DNA of 64,000 bases from assembly GCA_027366525.1 (NCBI GenBank), contig DAHXKG010000005.1, positions 128,575 to 192,574 of the forward strand. The letters are read 5' to 3'. Positions 676-11,270 of this stretch are shown one piece after another. A model generated the notes under the pieces. The model was not told the DNA's origin and did not search any database. It saw only the letters and a list, made by a program, of their open reading frames with translations. A program made the position numbers and the translations under genes. The stretch's first letter is position 1; every line of letters begins with the position of its first letter. Source of the stretch: a candidate division FCPU426 bacterium. Its GTDB lineage: Bacteria > Oederibacteriota > Muellerivitia > Muellerivitales > DAHXKG01.

Positions 676-3666
676 GTGAGCGTGCTAAAAAAAAATTCTT
701 GGTTGGGAATATTTATCATTGCCATGTTGACATTAATTCCGGAAGGAGTTTTGGCTCAAATGGCAGTGACAGTTACCAATAATAGTGGAAGTGTAAGTGT
801 TGCGGGAAGTCTTGGTGAAGCGGTGTCGGAAATTAACGGATATAGCGGAGGTGGTAATATTGTTTTAGCTATTTCACCCAATGCCCCAATTACGTTGAAT
901 CAACCGCTACCTGCTTCAGAAAGTGTTACATTTTTAGGAACCAGTACAGATTCTACACTAACAATGATTGGTGAAAATGAGTCAACGGCTACCAGTAATT
1001 TTTCAAACAATTTAAGATTAGATTCAGGAATGACTTTTAATTTTGAAAATGATGGTAGCGGAGGGGTGGGGCAATTGGATTGTATGGTTACAGTAGGCAC
1101 CAACTTAAGTGTGGAAGCGAATACCGCGTTAACCATTCTTGCCGCGGATGGGACAACCGGAAGCGCGGCGGGTAGTGCAGTATTAGGCGTAAATGATTCA
1201 AGCATATTGAATAATTCAAATTCAATGTTTTTAAAAGGTGGTACTGGCGGTGAAAATACGTCTGGAACTGGAGGCGCAGGAGGGGATGCAAGTATACAAA
1301 CTGTTATCTTGAATTTTTCTGGAAGTGATTCTCAAGTTAATTTAATGGGTGGAAACGGTGGTATTGGGGCCACGACAGGAATAGGTGGCAATGCATCGAT
1401 CGTGGGCGCTCAATTAACATTTTTAGGAAGTTCAAATGAAGTCACCCTTTCTGCGGGCAATGGTGAACTGGGTGGTAGTGCCGGGATAACATTGGATTTA
1501 TTTTCTACTTCTGAAAATTCAAATAATTTAAGCATTCTAAGTGGATCCGGCATACAAAATTCTGGTAATGCCACTGGATCGATTTCTGCAATTTTTCTAA
1601 CTGGAAATTTAAATAAAATTCTTATTCAAGGAGCCATCGGCGGCAATGGTGGTAATGCTGCGTTGACTAGTAATTCTGCGATTTTATCGAATAGTTCAAA
1701 TGGAATTCTTATTCTTGGTGGAAATACCAATAGTAATGGAATTGGCGGAAGTGCTTGGGTTTCCATAGGAACCGTTGAACTATCAGGATCATCAAATTTA
1801 ATAGATTCAATGGGTGGCTCAGGAACTACAGGTGGAAGTGTATCTATGATGCTTGGGAAGCTTACATTGGAGAACTCTCAGGATGACCTAAATATATTAG
1901 GGGGGACAGGCACCTCCCAAGAGGGAAATGCATATGTTACCGTTGGTACGTTTCAAGGCGATGGCGTTGTAACTATTTTAGGAGCGAATCCAGAATTTCA
2001 AATTAGCTCTGGAAATTTTTCAGGAACGATCAATGGAAATTGCAATTTGATAAAAGTGGGAAATGGAATACTCGATTTAAATGGGATTAATACTTATTCG
2101 GGAGGTACAACAGTTAGTGATGGGACGTTAGTAATCGGCACCTCCGGAAACATCGATTCGAAAATTACGAGCAATTTGACACTGGCGGCGGCAGGCGAAG
2201 TACAAGGTGTGGGGACAATTGCGGGCTCAGTGGTAAATAATGGTTTGGTGGTTCCAGGCAATGGCATATCCGGAACCCTTACAACGGAAAGTTATAATCA
2301 AAACACCAGCGGAGTTCTTGGCATCAATATTACTCCAAGCCAAGAGACGGAGTTAAGTGTTACCAATACGGCACAATTAAATGGAACGCTGGCGGCAACG
2401 ATTATTGGTAATTTTGGAATTCGGTATAATTTTACGTTATTATCGGCTAAATCAGTAACCGGCGAATTCACGAATCTTCAAATCGAAAATCCAATTGGAT
2501 TTAGCACTTCATTAATTTATGATTCCAATTCGGTTGTTTTAATGATGGATCGTTTAAATGCAAATTTTGATCAGTTTGCTCAAACACCCAATGAGTTATC
2601 GGTTGCCCAAGTTTTAAATCAACAAATACCCACGGCGAGTGGTAATTTACTGTCGGAAATGAATCAAATTTATGTACTCAATGGACAATCAACCATTTTA
2701 AGTCAACTTTCTGGATCAATTTATACGGTAGTACCAGAGGTTGAAATGGAGAATATTCAATCACAAATCGATACCTTGCTGCAACATTTAAGCAATAGAC
2801 TGTCTCAAAATTTGGCTGGCTCAAATTTTCAACATCAGAGTGGTTTAGATGGATACTGGGTGAGTAATTTAGATAATTTTGGAACGATATTGGGTAATGC
2901 TAATGTTTCGAAATATGAAACATTTCAATATAGTCTGATGGCAGGTTATGATTGGCGGTTTCATGAAAATTTATTGGGAACGGCGTTGGGATACCAACAT
3001 GCAATCATGAACTCATCAGACCTGTCTGGTGGATCAGCTAACATGGAGGCCTGGATCAATGATTTTTATGGAAGTCATACATTCGGATGGTTTTCTTTAA
3101 ACGGAATAGTTGGATATGGATTCAATCACTATCAGATCGTGCGGAGCATTTCAATCGGTAATTTAATAAATGGAAATTTAGATGGCTATCAATTAGTTAC
3201 CAATTGGAATATTTTAACTCAATTCAAAATTAACCAACTCAATTTTGAACCAATATTGGGTGTTCAATACAGCTATATTTCAACATCACCCACGGAAGAA
3301 ACAGGGGGGCAAAGTTTTGATTTAATTGTTCCGAGTGAGCACGTTAATTCATTGCGTCCATTTTTAGGGATTTTGATTAAATCGAGTTTCAAAATATTAG
3401 CCACTGAGTTTATTCCCTCGATCAAAATTACAGCATATAAAGAAGCGATTCCTCAAGGGAATCAAGAATTAATGGCGTTTGCTGCGGCGCCGAACGAGAT
3501 GTTTGGGGTTTATGGCATTAATCCCCCTACGCTTATTGCGAGCATAGAGGCTGGTATGAACATCATCGTCACCCCATCCAGTCAAATTCAATTAAGTTAT
3601 GAAGGAATATTAAGTGCAACTGAAAACCTCAACGGGATTTTGGGATCATTTGAATTAAAATTCTAA
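676..3666 (+). CDS. Autotransporter (type V secretion) protein with beta-helical passenger
   Basis: About 996 residues. An N-terminal signal peptide (charged start, hydrophobic IFIIAMLTLIP, cleavage near VLAQ) is followed by a Gly/Ser/Asn-rich passenger up to about residue 650. The passenger has many GGxG turns and beta-strand repeats typical of a right-handed beta-helix. Near residues 460-495 there is a passenger-associated repeat, GNGILDLNGINTYSGGTT. The last ~290 residues look like an autotransporter beta-barrel (DGYWVSNLDNFG, MAGYDWRFHENL) and end in phenylalanine (FELKF), as expected for BamA-dependent outer-membrane insertion. GTG 676 or GTG 682 may be the start; 682 sits 5 bases after AGAGG and looks better placed. 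No protease or adhesin motif was recognised. A degenerate insertion sequence begins 3 bases after the stop and has not damaged the gene. Confidence 0.85.
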   Translation: MSVLKKNSWLGIFIIAMLTLIPEGVLAQMAVTVTNNSGSVSVAGSLGEAVSEINGYSGGGNIVLAISPNAPITLNQPLPASESVTFLGTSTDSTLTMIGENESTATSNFSNNLRLDSGMTFNFENDGSGGVGQLDCMVTVGTNLSVEANTALTILAADGTTGSAAGSAVLGVNDSSILNNSNSMFLKGGTGGENTSGTGGAGGDASIQTVILNFSGSDSQVNLMGGNGGIGATTGIGGNASIVGAQLTFLGSSNEVTLSAGNGELGGSAGITLDLFSTSENSNNLSILSGSGIQNSGNATGSISAIFLTGNLNKILIQGAIGGNGGNAALTSNSAILSNSSNGILILGGNTNSNGIGGSAWVSIGTVELSGSSNLIDSMGGSGTTGGSVSMMLGKLTLENSQDDLNILGGTGTSQEGNAYVTVGTFQGDGVVTILGANPEFQISSGNFSGTINGNCNLIKVGNGILDLNGINTYSGGTTVSDGTLVIGTSGNIDSKITSNLTLAAAGEVQGVGTIAGSVVNNGLVVPGNGISGTLTTESYNQNTSGVLGINITPSQETELSVTNTAQLNGTLAATIIGNFGIRYNFTLLSAKSVTGEFTNLQIENPIGFSTSLIYDSNSVVLMMDRLNANFDQFAQTPNELSVAQVLNQQIPTASGNLLSEMNQIYVLNGQSTILSQLSGSIYTVVPEVEMENIQSQIDTLLQHLSNRLSQNLAGSNFQHQSGLDGYWVSNLDNFGTILGNANVSKYETFQYSLMAGYDWRFHENLLGTALGYQHAIMNSSDLSGGSANMEAWINDFYGSHTFGWFSLNGIVGYGFNHYQIVRSISIGNLINGNLDGYQLVTNWNILTQFKINQLNFEPILGVQYSYISTSPTEETGGQSFDLIVPSEHVNSLRPFLGILIKSSFKILATEFIPSIKITAYKEAIPQGNQELMAFAAAPNEMFGVYGINPPTLIASIEAGMNIIVTPSSQIQLSYEGILSATENLNGILGSFELKF

Positions 3667-3744: not shown

Positions 3745-4803
3745 CCTGCTGTGCGAGGCTCCCCTTAGTGTATCTGTAGTCATATTCTTCAACTTTGATA
3801 CCATCATGAATGATTTCTAGTTTCTGCCTGTGGACATTCGTCGTTCCAACCACATACTCATGTGTCAGTCCTTGCAGCGGTGTTCTTCCATGGATCTTGC
3901 TAAACGGTATCGACTATTTTGTTGGCTCTCCCATTTCAAGGATCCCTTGAACAAGGTGTTTTCGGTGCGATTGGTTTTATTCAGGAATTTTTGTTGGTAA
4001 TGGTCATTGAATTTCTCCACTACACCATTGTGCCAGGGTTCCCTCATTGGAATAAACCACAGATCAATCTTTTGATGCAAACACAGCCGGATCAAAGATC
4101 CCATTCCGCGGATAGGTGGGATTTCCACAAAACTCCTGAGCATTATCTATCTGCAGATTTTGTGATACCCTAAACGTTTCCAAATGCCCCAAAAGGCATC
4201 AAAAACACTTTGTCCTTCACGTCTGGACGAGGCTTGGACCAAAACGCCCGGTAGCCAAATCCACTACGTTTAAACTGTAAAACCGTGGTCTTCCCAACAA
4301 GAAATTAGGTCCAATCCAATCGGTTTGCTGGGCTTCATTGACACTGTGGCCTAAAAGTTTCGGATAAGGTGTTCCTTTGGCCTGATACGTCCAGTACGAC
4401 GATTAGGTTAACTCGTTTCGCCTGAGGATCCGGTCAACTGTACTTGCTGACGGTAAGAATTCAATACCTAAATCAGCCAACTCTCCCAGAATGGCTTGGG
4501 TTTCACAGAACAATATTTGGTTGTAGAGCTGGAGGTGAACCAGTTTAACGATTCTTTCAATTTCGTCCGAAGTCCGATCCGGATAATTTTTTCGAGCCCT
4601 CAGTTTTTAGACATACCAATATTCTTTATTGATTTGATAACGTTTAAGCCATTTATAAAACCACTGACGGGATCGCCCGAGCGACTGATAAATCACTACT
4701 GGAGTTTCTTCTTCCAAATACCTTTGAAGGGCTTATTTTTGAATATTTTCTTTGTTTTCCCTTCTGAATATCTCCTTTCAAGAGATATCAGAAGTATATT
4801 CAT
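3745..4803 (-). pseudogene. Transposase pseudogene, DDE integrase-core type (IS481/ISNCY-like)
   Basis: Joining minus-strand frames gives a recognisable integrase-type transposase broken by stops and frameshifts. From about 4735 downward one frame reads a helix-turn-helix part (IYQSLGRSRQWFYKWLKRY), then QAKGTPYPKLLGHSVNEA and the first catalytic Asp in QQTDWIGP, interrupted by three in-frame stops. A shift near 4190-4220 leads to LQIDNAQEFCGNPTYP (second Asp). A further shift near 4090 leads to WFIPMREPWHNGVVEKFN (catalytic Glu). Another near 3870 leads to TPLQGLTHEYVVGTTNVH. All three DDE residues remain, but at least three frame breaks plus stops make it non-functional. It was probably about 340 residues with a start near 4803. 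Confidence 0.85.
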
Positions 4804-5954: not shown

Positions 5955-8609
5955 ATGGATGGGTTTGCGGCACAAGATAAAAAAATAGTTGTAAAGATGG
6001 CACATATCTATTCCCAAGAAGAAAAATGGGATAAAGCGATAGAGGAATATAAAAAGCTTTTAATTTTAGATCCAAACGACCTCAACATTCAAAGTATGCT
6101 TGGGGATATGTATTTGAAGAATGGATCGATTTCTGAAGCATATACAATTTATGTAAAGTTGAGAAATGTTTATAATGCTATGGGAGACCAAGATAAGATT
6201 AGTAATATAAATAAAAAAATTTCATTGTTGGAGTCATCTGAATTGAGCATGGACGCACAAAATTTACAATCAACGATTCGGCTTACCCAAAAAGCTGATC
6301 AAGAAATAGAAAATGGCCAATGGGGTTCTGCAGCAGAGATTTTAAATCAGATTTTAAAAATTGAACCAGATAATTTAAGCGCTTTACAAAAACTTGCTAT
6401 TGTTATGGAATCCAAGGGTGAGAAGCAAGAGGCGGCAAAGCAATATGTAGCATTGGGTTCTGAATTTTCTAAAAATCGCCTTTATAAGAAAGCTCAGGAA
6501 GTATTTCAAAAAGCTTTAGAATTGAATTCGGAGCAATTGCAAGCTCGAATTGAACTTGCACAAATTTATAGTAAGCAAGGCATGGAAAGTGATGCCAAAA
6601 AAGAATTTTTAAATTTAGCTGAAACCTACTTAAAATTGGATGATTTTGAAAAAGCTCAACAATTTGCGAATAAAGCAATCGAATTTAAAAGTATTGAAGC
6701 CCACTATGTTCTAGGTGTTATTTATTATTTTCGACAAATGTATGCGGAAGCTAAAATCGAATTGGAAGAACTTCTTCGATTTAAGATTAATCACATTGGA
6801 GCTCTTGCACATTTAGCAAGAATTTTTTTACAACAAAAACAATTTGATAAGGCATGGGAGCAAATTCAAAAAGCTCAAAAAAATGAAAAAAATAATGTTT
6901 ATGTTTTAGAGGCTCTGGTGGATTATTATTTTCATAAAGGGATGACGAAAGAAACCACAGATGCCTTCGAAGAATTTATTCAACAAGCATTTGATAAAAA
7001 GGAATTTAAAGAGATTAGTCGAAATATTAAAATGTTTAATATGATTGAATTAACGAACCCGTCTTCGTATGAAAAAATAGCTCAAGCGTTTGAGCAATTG
7101 GGGAAAATGCAAGAAACGGAACAGTATTATTTAAAGGCCAAGCAATTACTGGGAGATACAAGCAATAAAATAGAATCGCTTGCACAGGGAAAAATATCGG
7201 GAACCAATGCGGAATCCAAAACAAATACAGTACAGAAAGAAATCATTCCACCCGAGACTAAAAAAGCCGCTATTGAATCTAATTCCTTAAACAAGAATTT
7301 GGAGACGTTAGTAGTGGATTTAGAAGTCGACTCGGAGATAAAGGAGAGATCGGCAAGTCCCAAAGCCGAAGTTACTCCTGCCCCAGAAGTGGTTTTTAAG
7401 GAGTCAAGCTCTAAAAATAGTGAAGTAGATGCCGAGATAACCATTCAAATGGGTATTGCGGATAATTATCTTAAACAAGAGCTGATTGAAGAAGCCATCG
7501 ACATGTATCAACAAATTTTAGAGAAATTTCCACATCGAGAAGACGTCCGTTTAAAATTAAATTCGGCATATACACTTTATGTCAAAAGTGGCGAACGTAT
7601 TCTAGACGCGTTAGAATCTGAAAAACGGAAAAAAGAATTGGAGGAACAACGCGTAAAAGCCGAAATTGAAAAGAAGGCCAAAGAAGAAGTTGAACGAAAA
7701 ATCAGAGCCGATGTAGAAAGAAAGGCTCGCGAAGAAGCCGTAAAAACCGCTGAAAATGAATTGCGTCAACGTCGAGAGCTTGAGGCAATGACCAAGCGTG
7801 CTCAGGAAGAAGCAGATCGACGAATCAAAGAAGAAACGGAAAAACGAGCTCGGGCTGAATTCGAAAAAAAACGTGGAGAAGACGAACAAAGAGTAAAAAT
7901 CGAACTTGAAAAACGTGTTCAAGCTGAATTGGAAAAAAAACGCAAAGAAGAGGAACAGCGGGCAAAAATCGAACTCGAACAACGCGTTCAAGTTGAATTG
8001 GAAAAAAAACGCAAAGAGGAAGAACAGAGAGCAAAAATCGAACTTGAAAAGCGTGTTCAAGCTGAATTGGAAAAAAAACGTAAAGAGGACGAACAAAAGG
8101 CAAAATTGGAACTTGAAAAACGCGTTCAAGAAGAAACAGAAAAAAGACTTCGCGAAGAATTAGAAAAGAAAAAACGATCCGACAATATGGGAACTAGTTT
8201 GAAAGAATTAGGCGCTAAGAAAAAAACAGATTCAAATCTGAATGTTTCGAGCAAAACCAGTTCACCTAAATCCAAAGAACTTGCGGAAGAACCGAAAGAT
8301 GAGTTTATGACAATTGCAGTAGCAGATATCTATTTGCGTCAAGGGCTCTATTCAGAAGCAATGAAAATTTGCAAAAGCATTATGATTACAGAGCCGGATA
8401 ACTTTGAGGCCAAGAAGAAGCTTGAGGAAATCGAAATGTTGATGAAGTCTAAGGGTTTGGAACCCCTAGAAAAAAAATCGGTTATGCAGGCGATTAATGT
8501 ATCGGCCGAAAAACAAACGGTGGTATCTCCAGCTAAAGCAGATTCTGTAAAATCGGCGGAAAAAGAAAACTACACTAAAAAGAAGTCAGGAAAAGTCGGA
8601 TATGTCTGA
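5955..8609 (+). CDS. TPR / long coiled-coil protein
   Basis: 884 residues with no signal peptide or membrane segment, so probably cytoplasmic. Residues 1-400 are tandem tetratricopeptide repeats (for example WDKAIEEYKKLLILDPND). Residues 490-545 form another TPR block. Residues ~550-745 are a highly charged Lys/Glu/Arg coiled coil built partly from 23-residue repeats. The C-terminal ~60 residues hold a final TPR-like unit (TIAVADIYLRQGLYSEA), a motif I have seen in TPR proteins of deltaproteobacteria and related groups. It is followed after 24 bases by an ExeA-like ATPase, so the two are likely cotranscribed. Such a scaffold suggests assembly or positioning of a complex; the partner is unknown. 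The start ATG has only a weak ribosome site. Confidence 0.8.
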   Translation: MDGFAAQDKKIVVKMAHIYSQEEKWDKAIEEYKKLLILDPNDLNIQSMLGDMYLKNGSISEAYTIYVKLRNVYNAMGDQDKISNINKKISLLESSELSMDAQNLQSTIRLTQKADQEIENGQWGSAAEILNQILKIEPDNLSALQKLAIVMESKGEKQEAAKQYVALGSEFSKNRLYKKAQEVFQKALELNSEQLQARIELAQIYSKQGMESDAKKEFLNLAETYLKLDDFEKAQQFANKAIEFKSIEAHYVLGVIYYFRQMYAEAKIELEELLRFKINHIGALAHLARIFLQQKQFDKAWEQIQKAQKNEKNNVYVLEALVDYYFHKGMTKETTDAFEEFIQQAFDKKEFKEISRNIKMFNMIELTNPSSYEKIAQAFEQLGKMQETEQYYLKAKQLLGDTSNKIESLAQGKISGTNAESKTNTVQKEIIPPETKKAAIESNSLNKNLETLVVDLEVDSEIKERSASPKAEVTPAPEVVFKESSSKNSEVDAEITIQMGIADNYLKQELIEEAIDMYQQILEKFPHREDVRLKLNSAYTLYVKSGERILDALESEKRKKELEEQRVKAEIEKKAKEEVERKIRADVERKAREEAVKTAENELRQRRELEAMTKRAQEEADRRIKEETEKRARAEFEKKRGEDEQRVKIELEKRVQAELEKKRKEEEQRAKIELEQRVQVELEKKRKEEEQRAKIELEKRVQAELEKKRKEDEQKAKLELEKRVQEETEKRLREELEKKKRSDNMGTSLKELGAKKKTDSNLNVSSKTSSPKSKELAEEPKDEFMTIAVADIYLRQGLYSEAMKICKSIMITEPDNFEAKKKLEEIEMLMKSKGLEPLEKKSVMQAINVSAEKQTVVSPAKADSVKSAEKENYTKKKSGKVGYV
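7862..8137 (+). repeat. Four 69-base tandem repeats encoding a 23-residue coiled-coil unit
   Basis: Units begin near 7862, 7931, 8000 and 8069, exactly 69 bases apart. Each encodes a variant of KKRKEEEQRAKIELEKRVQA plus three residues. The copies differ mostly by single-base changes. They lie inside the TPR/coiled-coil gene and preserve its frame, so copy number can change by recombination without breaking the protein. Confidence 0.85.
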
Positions 8610-8633
8610 TATTGGTTTCCATAGGAGCGGTGA

Positions 8634-9458
8634 ATGAGTTATGAAAGTTTTTATGGGTTAAAAGAGCAAGCTTTTTCTAATGCCCCAGATGGGAGATTTT
8701 ATTTTGAAAGCAGCCAACATTCCGAAGCCATGGTGCGAATGCTGCATGCTTTAGATGGGATGAAGGGCTTAATCGTAATGGTTGGCGATATTGGTGCAGG
8801 TAAAACGCTTCTTGCGCGCAAAGCGCTGGAAAAATTGGAAGAAGATTCACAATATGAGGCGACCTTACTGGTTATTATTCATTCTGAAATTTCTGCGGAG
8901 TGGATTTTAAGAAAAGTTGCTCAGCAATTCGGAGTTGAAAATATTGGGTCAACCAAAGCGGAAATTATTTCACAACTTTATGAGCGATTGATGCAATTAT
9001 ATGAGAATGGGAAAAAAGCAGTGGTTTTAATTGATGAAGCTAACATGTTGCAAAAAAAAGAAATTTTTGAAGAATTTCGCGGGTTACTAAACTTGGAGGT
9101 CCCAGGTCGTAAATTAATTTCTATTGTACTCTTGGGATTACCAGAACTCGATCAATTTCTAGTATTAGATCCCGCATTGCAACAACGTGTGGCGGTCAAA
9201 TTTGCGCTCAAATCATTAACGCGGGAAACGACAGAACAATATATCAAACATCGACTCTTAATTGCCGGATGCATCAAGGAAATTTTTACGCAAGCGGCTT
9301 TTCAGGCTATTTTTGAGTATACTACAGGAACTCCACGATTGATTAATACGATTTGTGATAATGCAATGTTAGAATCATATTTGTTAAAACGTGAACTTAT
9401 TGATTCAGATATTATCAATCAAGTGGCCGGAGATTTAGGATTACATAAAGAAAGTTGA
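8634..9458 (+). CDS. ExeA/GspA-like AAA ATPase
   Basis: 274 residues. Walker A GDIGAGKT at residues 51-58; Walker B VVLIDEA at about 130-136. There is a GLPELDQ segment typical of ExeA/MshM-type ATPases and a C-terminal lid with TTGTPRLINTICDNA. The opening SYESFYGLKEQAFSNAPDGRF is the classic ExeA start. It lacks the C-terminal membrane and peptidoglycan-binding part of true GspA/ExeA. Relatives energise assembly of type II secretion or pilus machinery, or act near exopolysaccharide systems. Here the only partner visible is the TPR/coiled-coil protein 24 bases upstream, so the substrate cannot be named. Confidence 0.85.
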   Translation: MSYESFYGLKEQAFSNAPDGRFYFESSQHSEAMVRMLHALDGMKGLIVMVGDIGAGKTLLARKALEKLEEDSQYEATLLVIIHSEISAEWILRKVAQQFGVENIGSTKAEIISQLYERLMQLYENGKKAVVLIDEANMLQKKEIFEEFRGLLNLEVPGRKLISIVLLGLPELDQFLVLDPALQQRVAVKFALKSLTRETTEQYIKHRLLIAGCIKEIFTQAAFQAIFEYTTGTPRLINTICDNAMLESYLLKRELIDSDIINQVAGDLGLHKES

Positions 9459-9737: not shown

Positions 9738-11270
9738 ATGAAATTAGCGTTGTCAAATAGCCGTAATAAATTATCACCACGAATTCGCGTTCAATATCGA
9801 TATCTTCAAAATGATTCGAAAGTAATTAAGTTATTATATCCAGCAACACTCGATAACGGCATCTTAAAACTGAGATCGCAGCAAGAACGTGAATCGATTG
9901 TTGCATTTGATCAAGCGGCACAACAAGGTCGCTTTTTGAAATTTGTGCCGGCATCCGGTGCGGCCACGAGAATGTTTCAAGATATTCTCGATTTTATTCA
10001 ATCAAGAATTCATAACGAGAAAATAGACCAATTCAGAATGCGGCGAATGCGTCAATTGATAAAATGGATGCCGAAGCTGGCATTTTATGATTTATTAAAG
10101 CGAGAAATGGATTATTATCCCATTGAAGTGAACCGTGGTGTGGAAAATCACAATGACATATCGCAATTCACTTTCCTCATGTTTACTCCAGGACTTAATT
10201 ACGCCAAAAAATCCAAAGGCCTGATTCTTTTCCATAAATATGGCGAGGAAAGCCATACAGCTTTTGAAGAACAAGTTTTAGAAGGACTAAAATATATTCA
10301 AGATGGTCAAAAAAAAAGTAAATTTCATTTTACAATTGCACCCGATGAATATGATGAATATCAAGCCATGTCCAAATTAATAAAACAAAAATGGTTTTTG
10401 AAAAATCAATGTCGAATTGATATTTCATTTTCCGTACAGGATGTAGCAAGCAATACGATTGCCATCGATCTTCAGAAAAATATTATTAAGGATCAAAAAG
10501 GTCACATCGTAATGAGACCTGGTGGGCATGGCTCACTGTTATCCAATTTAAATAAATTAAAAGCGGATATTGTTTTTATTCGGAATATTGATAATATTGC
10601 ATCGGAGTCAGCATGGAAAAAAACGGTTTATTGGAAAAAAGTTTTAGGAGGATATTTAGTTGGAATTCAGAAGCAGGTACATGTCTTATTGAAAGAGTTG
10701 CACAAGCGCCCTGCGAAATCAAGTGTGATCCATGTGTGTGAAAGATTTATTTTAAAAGAGCTAAAGGGATCATTTATAACTTCATATCATTTAAAAACGA
10801 ATTCAGAGAAAATTAGTATACTGAAGCAATTTTTAAATCGTCCAATTCGTGTTTGTGGAATGGTGAAGAATAAAAAAGAACCCGGTGGAGGTCCATTTTG
10901 GATTTATGATGAAAAATATGGTAAATCTTTACAAATCGTTGAATCAGCCGAGGTGGATTTTTCGCAAAAAAAACAACGTGCAATTTTTCAATCGGCTACA
11001 CATTTTAATCCCGTGGATATTGTGTGTGGCTTGAAAAAATGGGATGGTAATTCGTTTGATCTTCGACAATATATGAATCCTAAGGCGGTGATTATTACTC
11101 AAAAAAATGTTAATGGGATTCCGGCCAAGGTTTTAGAGCATCCCGGCCTTTGGAATGGATCGATGGCAGATTGGATTACGGTTTTTATTGAAGTGCCTTT
11201 GGAAACATTTACACCAGTTAAGACCATTTTTGATTTGATGCGTAAAAGTCATTTGCAATCACATTTTTGA
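9738..11270 (+). CDS. DUF4301 family protein
   Basis: 510 residues. The segment KFVPASGAATRMF (residues 68-80) and RPGGHGSLLSNLNK (near 259) identify the DUF4301 family, known to me mainly from Bacteroidota and other diderms. The SGAATR stretch recalls the nucleotide-binding loop (GxGTR) of sugar nucleotidyltransferases, and the gene heads an operon of dTDP-sugar enzymes with rmlB 18 bases downstream. I therefore infer a nucleotide-sugar or phosphosugar-related role; no reaction is established. No signal or membrane segment is visible. The start is ATG 9738 with a weak AAGG site; ATG 9734 is out of frame. Confidence 0.8.
   Translation: MKLALSNSRNKLSPRIRVQYRYLQNDSKVIKLLYPATLDNGILKLRSQQERESIVAFDQAAQQGRFLKFVPASGAATRMFQDILDFIQSRIHNEKIDQFRMRRMRQLIKWMPKLAFYDLLKREMDYYPIEVNRGVENHNDISQFTFLMFTPGLNYAKKSKGLILFHKYGEESHTAFEEQVLEGLKYIQDGQKKSKFHFTIAPDEYDEYQAMSKLIKQKWFLKNQCRIDISFSVQDVASNTIAIDLQKNIIKDQKGHIVMRPGGHGSLLSNLNKLKADIVFIRNIDNIASESAWKKTVYWKKVLGGYLVGIQKQVHVLLKELHKRPAKSSVIHVCERFILKELKGSFITSYHLKTNSEKISILKQFLNRPIRVCGMVKNKKEPGGGPFWIYDEKYGKSLQIVESAEVDFSQKKQRAIFQSATHFNPVDIVCGLKKWDGNSFDLRQYMNPKAVIITQKNVNGIPAKVLEHPGLWNGSMADWITVFIEVPLETFTPVKTIFDLMRKSHLQSHF

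Follow-up and report, generated by a model that had tools for sequence, protein, structure and literature searches.

The gene pair

The subject of this analysis is a pair of adjacent genes in a 64,000-nucleotide stretch of DNA from a candidate division FCPU426 bacterium (the window, contig G000:C29; source genome 2.0 Mb, 97.5% complete). The first gene encodes a protein rich in tetratricopeptide repeats (TPRs), and the second encodes an ATPase of the AAA+ class (Table 1). A first-pass annotation, made from the sequence, had described an 884-residue TPR protein lying 24 bases before an ExeA-type ATPase, and the open reading frames (ORFs), both on the forward strand, and a family scan agree with it, the first protein giving many TPR matches (TPR_19, 5.8e-31) and the second a match to AAA_22 (1.8e-20). 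What that annotation overlooked is the most conserved feature of the pair, a short C-terminal tail on the TPR protein. We favour, with a probability of just under one half (about 0.48), the explanation that the TPR protein acts as a pilus scaffold of the SgmX kind and docks, by its tail, on a TnsC/MuB-like AAA+ switch.

The best mean hydropathy over 19 residues is 0.87 in the TPR protein and 1.58 in the ATPase, and hence neither has a clear membrane segment; the TPR protein is of the same cytoplasmic type as SgmX. The ATPase ends at residue 274, which leaves no room for the wall-binding part of ExeA, and no peptidoglycan-binding or membrane Pfam match follows its AAA domain, so that its earlier description as lacking these parts holds. 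Residues about 550-745 of the TPR protein contain 27-35% K+R and 22-30% D+E, and the coiled coil was called from this charged composition.

Table 1. Features of the gene pair, in window positions.
Feature	Position	Strand	Remarks
TPR/coiled-coil scaffold gene, SgmX-like partner	5955..8609	+	884 aa; ORF list, TPR family matches
Charged coiled-coil region, residues about 550-742	7602..8180	+	Residue composition
69-base tandem repeat in the coiled-coil DNA, 4.2 copies	7839-8130	+	
Conserved C-terminal end KSGKVGYV with the stop codon; predicted docking peptide	8583..8609	+	Tail comparison across pairs
TnsC/ExeA-like AAA+ ATPase gene	8634..9458	+	274 aa, without membrane or wall-binding part
Walker A GDIGAGKT, residues 51-58	8784..8807	+	G54, G56, K57 and T58 invariant in 19/19 aligned sequences
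Walker B, ending D134-E135	9021..9038	+	D134 and E135 invariant in 19/19 aligned sequences

Conservation of the pair and of the scaffold tail

Joint conservation of the two genes, a check proposed in the first-pass annotation, is borne out, as they are neighbours in relatives across several phyla. The closest relatives of the ATPase, at 75-79% identity over the full length, come from FCPU426 metagenome-assembled genomes (MAGs). A TPR gene lies directly upstream in 13 of the first 21 relatives found with the ATPase (FCPU426, two FCPU426-like MAGs under other labels, Nitrospirota, Deferribacterota, a Bacillota-labelled MAG, an unplaced MAG, and WOR-3), and the other eight are Planctomycetota with frames of 529-689 aa and no TPR gene upstream. 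Within the phylum of the window, a TIGR03015-like ATPase is present in 40 of 45 genomes (G002, G012, G015, G020 and G022 gave no match to the ATPase family). It is preceded by a TPR gene in 27 of the 36 genomes with readable upstream DNA, tallied by hand from tables and leaving out G021, G024, G027 and G042, where the ATPase lies at a contig edge. Among the best-matching loci read, which represent 30 of 41 Nitrospirota and 30 of 72 WOR-3 (Caldifarciminota) genomes with the ATPase, a TPR gene comes before it in 29 of 30 in each group. These upstream TPR genes were called with a profile, which replaced a crude TPR regular expression that had matched nothing anywhere. Because the pair is conserved in relatives, chance adjacency is excluded.

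The genes downstream of the pair differ between groups (patatin, PHP, sigma-54 regulators, histidine kinase, DUF4301), and therefore the TPR-ATPase pair itself is the conserved unit; in WOR-3 this unit often stands in tandem, as TPR-ATPase-TPR-ATPase (loci L158, L162 and L170). In many families of the phylum (L042, L048, L074 and other loci) a gene for a patatin-like phospholipase comes straight after the pair, but not in the window. There, a DUF4301 protein is encoded at 9738-11270 (+), and a similarly starting ORF comes after the pair in L009 and L011-L013. The TPR partners range from 262 to 942 aa and differ in their middles. The charged coiled coil described in the first-pass annotation is indeed present in the window protein, but it is missing from the partners in L015, L018 and L019; since partners in Nitrospirota and others do without it, it lies outside the conserved core and is, on the sequences compared, an elaboration of the window's order of bacteria.

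Of 102 distinct pairs, 98 have a TPR protein that ends in a tail of the form [V/I]-x-[Y/F]-[LIVMF]-COOH, compared with 1 of 1073 other ORFs; for a strict basic form the counts are 83 of 102 and 0 of 1073 (identical pairs counted once; comparison ORFs at least 90 aa long, drawn from the window and from these same loci). Examples are KKDRVSYL in Nitrospirota, KKSKITYL in WOR-3, KKKKISFL in Deferribacterota, and KSGKVGYV in the window, where the TPR ORF is alone among ORFs of at least 60 aa in having this kind of end. A looser pattern matches five times across the window, against 3.9 by chance, and only the TPR ORF ends so. A scan of the window's own genome used a pattern with an obligatory basic residue at -7, to which the tail in the window does not conform; it gave three matches, none of them the end of a listed ORF. 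The pairs without the loose tail are L046, L167, L172 and L220. In L046 the 367-residue upstream frame stops 389 bases before the ATPase, which is probably not its true end; the ATPase of L172 branches with those adjoining chemosensory genes; and L220 has an unknown base in the tail. No prior description of the tail was found in open-licence papers, and the conserved C-terminal tail on the TPR partner is new here.

The tandem WOR-3 units carry two classes of tail, a basic Y-tail (mean net charge +2.8 at positions -8 to -5) and an F-tail (-0.7). Both were found in 24 WOR-3 genomes, and in all 24 the Y-tail precedes the higher-scoring ATPase and the F-tail the other (60 further higher-scoring places were fetched for these classes, and some ATPases gave no tail). 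This order fits cognate recognition, though common descent of each unit would account for it just as well. Mutual information between columns of the tail and those of the ATPase tracks kinship and was left out of account, as were ATPase columns whose conservation is confined to the tail-paired group.

The ATPase fold, SgmX and a proposed link to pili

An AlphaFold2 model of the L011 orthologue, made with a read-through N-terminus, has a mean predicted local distance difference test (pLDDT) score of 80.8. Its ATPase matches the structures of Drosophila ORC/Cdc6 (Z 20.4), ShTnsC (7plh, Z 20.0) and MuB (8xvc, Z 19.6, 23% identity), and so has the AAA+ fold of the TnsC/MuB clade. In a tree built from 77 representative ATPases, 7 changes account for the tail label, compared with 24 after shuffling. 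Those ATPases that sit in a secretin cluster, beside chemosensory genes, or in fused form as in Planctomycetota make up a separate clade. Related ATPases are found in L092 and L095, beside what we take to be CheW-, CheY- and CheA-like genes, and L095 also encodes a protein with FliG middle and C-terminal domains. In genome G017 (L110:4146-8807), a more distant ATPase of the superfamily is flanked by a roadblock gene and what is presumably a DUF4388-like gene, and is accompanied by an MglA-like GTPase and a further small gene; this group is a possible polarity cluster.

Among NCBIfam families, SgmX (NF052243) scores highest with the partners in L015 (178 bits), L019 (171) and L018 (129), as well as in L074, L160, L162, L016 and the second TPR genes of L020 and L158. 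It is not the top family for the window TPR protein, L011, L021, L087 or the first TPR genes of L020 and L158, and the L164 partner reaches no NCBIfam family at 1e-8. Among six further partner fragments, SgmX is top in five and tied with MamA in that of L136. All of these scores, even the best, fall far under the family cut-off of 1800 bits. The match of the L160 partner to the SgmX model reaches position 1064 of 1065, and 1043 without its last eight residues. The native L160 end scores 79.6 bits, V at -4 raises this to 80.1 (with a match to 1065 of 1065), and the other variants give 79.5 (L at -1), 79.3 (D at -3), 78.9 (F at -2, and D at -1), 78.7 (D at -5), 78.6 (D at -2), 78.4 (D at -4), and 78.1 for a nine-glycine end, with which the match stops at 1042. 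The differences, though small, rank as they should if SgmX proteins end in [KR]-V-x-Y-V, and so hint at the same tail at the end of the SgmX model; the window end KVGYV fits this form, as read from the variant scans of one relative.

In Myxococcus xanthus, the ATPase gene MXAN_5765 lies directly after sgmX (MXAN_5766), which is not so in Bdellovibrio; judged by gene order, MXAN_5765 is the nearest ATPase that has been studied. Three papers (PMC7519303, PMC7668184, PMC11580455) describe both the formation of pili and the polar location of PilB as dependent on SgmX, and the last treats the bringing of PilB to the pilus base by SgmX as an open question in Myxococcus (PMC11580455). There, SgmX is recruited by MglA, which is bound by its C-terminal TPRs.

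PilT exceeds its cut-off in 44 of the 45 phylum genomes, that of the window included, and in 7/7 other genomes of loci L015-L021, in keeping with the earlier suggestion, which we consider likely, of a scaffold and ATPase whose target machine is encoded elsewhere. It is also found in 7 of 8 Planctomycetota without the pair. In Nitrospirota, PilT accompanies the ATPase in 40 of 41 genomes and occurs in 84 of 107 without it (p = 0.005). For the WOR-3 Y-tail pair the figures are 36/37 and 84/110 (p = 0.003); the exception, G129, has a PilB/GspE-type ATPase. In both groups, unlisted PilT-negative genomes were identified by elimination.

On the explanation that we favour, the TPR domains of the scaffold would hold the controlled machine, most likely a type IV pilus extension ATPase or pilus base encoded elsewhere. 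Its disordered linker would end in the basic-[V/I]-x-Y-[V/L/I]-COOH tail, which would dock on the ATPase as the TnsB hook does on TnsC, and the ATPase, by assembling in an ATP-dependent way, would gather the scaffold into clusters or let it go and so determine where and when the machine is active. The model for docking is ShCAST, where a C-terminal 15-residue hook of TnsB, on a flexible linker, binds TnsC and is required for transposition (PMC9371665). By this analogy the scaffold tail probably docks on the ATPase; we likewise infer that the pair controls the pilus and that oligomerisation of the ATPase works as an ATP-driven switch.

A number of results weigh against this explanation. In the read-through model of L011, a single chain of tail, intergenic codons (stops as glycine) and ATPase modelled with 20 relatives, the tail is left undocked, with pLDDT below 50 where the ATPase is mostly above 90. 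Nine genomes of the phylum, all of families f4 and f5, have a related ATPase without a TPR neighbour, and with the window TPR protein SgmX reaches only 31 bits, fewer than several other TPR families do. None of the p values for PilT is corrected for kinship, and in WOR-3 as a whole PilT is present in 62 of 72 genomes with the ATPase and 58 of 75 without (p = 0.20). Eight WOR-3 genomes (G117-G124), six of them with an F-tail partner, hold such an ATPase although they have neither PilT nor, at E 1e-30, a T2SSE ATPase, and a strict pilus-only model is weakened by their keeping it. Pilus or secretion genes linked to the pair in relatives, for which the first-pass annotation had proposed a search, do occur in L018, with pilT directly upstream, but in that locus only among those seen. 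Loss of MXAN_5765 has no effect on S-motility in M. xanthus, where truncating SgmX at its C-terminus yields a gain-of-function form. Finally, 42 of the 45 phylum genomes, that of the window included, lack MglA (E 1e-10). The input signal must therefore differ from that in Myxococcus, and we reject an MglA-driven model for this phylum.

The undocked tail favours a second explanation, in which the tail binds a third protein (a pole landmark, PilB, PilM or a membrane site) and the two genes are neighbours only by virtue of a shared function. Many different partners are conceivable for a C-terminal peptide; yet the tail class follows the ATPase class throughout the tandem genomes, tails occur almost only on the gene preceding this ATPase, and genomes without pilus ATPases retain both tail and ATPase, and we regard this explanation as unlikely. 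A third explanation keeps the docking of the tail on the ATPase and makes the module a general organiser of the envelope or cell pole, with pili as only one client. In its favour are the F-tail pairs of those WOR-3 genomes that lack any T2SSE ATPase, the wide variation of the downstream genes, and the dispensability for pili of MXAN_5765 and of mshM and mshN (see below). However, the Y-tail form, which is that of the window, occurs in WOR-3 only with a PilT- or PilB-type ATPase (37/37), and nearly all Nitrospirota genomes with the ATPase have PilT. A general organiser seems rather unlikely. In loci L163-L168, from genomes without pilus ATPases, a conserved block holds an epimerase-like gene, an amidohydrolase-like gene, two short TPR proteins, the ATPase, a PHP domain and DUF4159.

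The SgmX-like explanation can tentatively be widened into a hook code, to which we give somewhat less than even odds. In at least four phyla, TnsC-like ATPases would recruit their own TPR scaffold by an [I/V]-x-[Y/F]-hydrophobic tail, with basic Y-tails (SgmX included) serving type IV pilus control and acidic or neutral F-tails a second machine, present even without pili or type II secretion. If true, this would give SgmX its missing AAA+ partner, extend SgmX-like control to phyla without MglA, and reveal a paralogous module with a second machine. A conserved tail with an accompanying ATPase across phyla offers a concrete link, of one peptide and one receptor.

The locus beside known systems

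The pair is flanked by carbonic anhydrase and DUF4301 genes, not by an MSHA pilus operon, and no secretion or pilus gene is present among the ORFs of the window's first 16 kb by ORF list and family scan, as had been noted in the first-pass annotation. Further upstream, an autotransporter with a PATR repeat and beta-domain is encoded at 676-3666 (+), and a 92-aa ORF at 3865-4143 (-) resembles what we take to be an insertion sequence transposase remnant.

By score, the best named families are those of the exosortase system, namely the XrtA/PEP-CTERM-associated ATPase (TIGR03015, 203.6 bits) and PrsT (TIGR02917, 72.6 bits for the TPR protein). An exosortase- or exopolysaccharide (EPS)-type pair would also suit the genes downstream in the window that we take to be sugar-nucleotide genes. 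Both scores are far under the curated cut-offs (324.5 and 312.2, respectively), however, none of the 45 phylum genomes reaches that of the ATPase, and the Planctomycetota relatives, which have EPS-like neighbours, are fused, have no TPR partner and branch apart. Such a pair is highly improbable here, and membership of the exosortase and ExeA families is rejected for reasons of score and architecture.

A further explanation, along the lines of the first-pass annotation, has the ATPase energise the assembly of a secretin or pilus, as a motor of the ExeA/MshM type. Its AAA_22 superfamily is the same, and ExeA-type genes occur within a secretin-GspE-GspF cluster of a WOR-3 genome (L169), but cluster-bound ATPases fall elsewhere in the tree, together with the Planctomycetota forms. 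ExeA acts together with ExeB when the secretin is assembled, and it also interacts with peptidoglycan (PMC4098917), whereas the window ATPase shares the AAA_22-type domain of ExeA/GspA, is only 274 residues long, has no clear membrane segment or wall domain, and has a soluble TPR partner. In the MSHA pilus of Vibrio cholerae, MshM and MshN resemble the window pair as an ExeA-like ATPase beside a TPR protein; there, however, the ATPase comes first, inside a full pilus operon, and in the window the TPR gene comes first with no pilus genes near. Production of MSHA pili did not fall when mshM or mshN was deleted. This, the sparing of pilus motility by loss of MXAN_5765, and a fold of the TnsC/MuB/ORC switch type leave the claim that the ATPase energises assembly unsupported. 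A motor of this type is quite improbable.

TnsC and MuB share the fold of the window ATPase (Z about 20, from the model of the L011 orthologue), and the binding of TnsC by a short C-terminal peptide of its partner TnsB, on a flexible linker, is what is proposed for the window. The partner in the window is a TPR scaffold, however, and no transposase lies beside the pair. SgmX and MXAN_5765 differ from the window pair in the window's low SgmX score, its lack of MglA, its long charged coiled coil, and its downstream gene (DUF4301, against TamB/TamA in Myxococcus). Kinship of MXAN_5765 with the window ATPase is judged by literature wording and gene order only. The likeness is that of a cytoplasmic TPR protein with an ATPase gene directly after it, pilus genes in the genome and, apparently, the same C-terminal tail.

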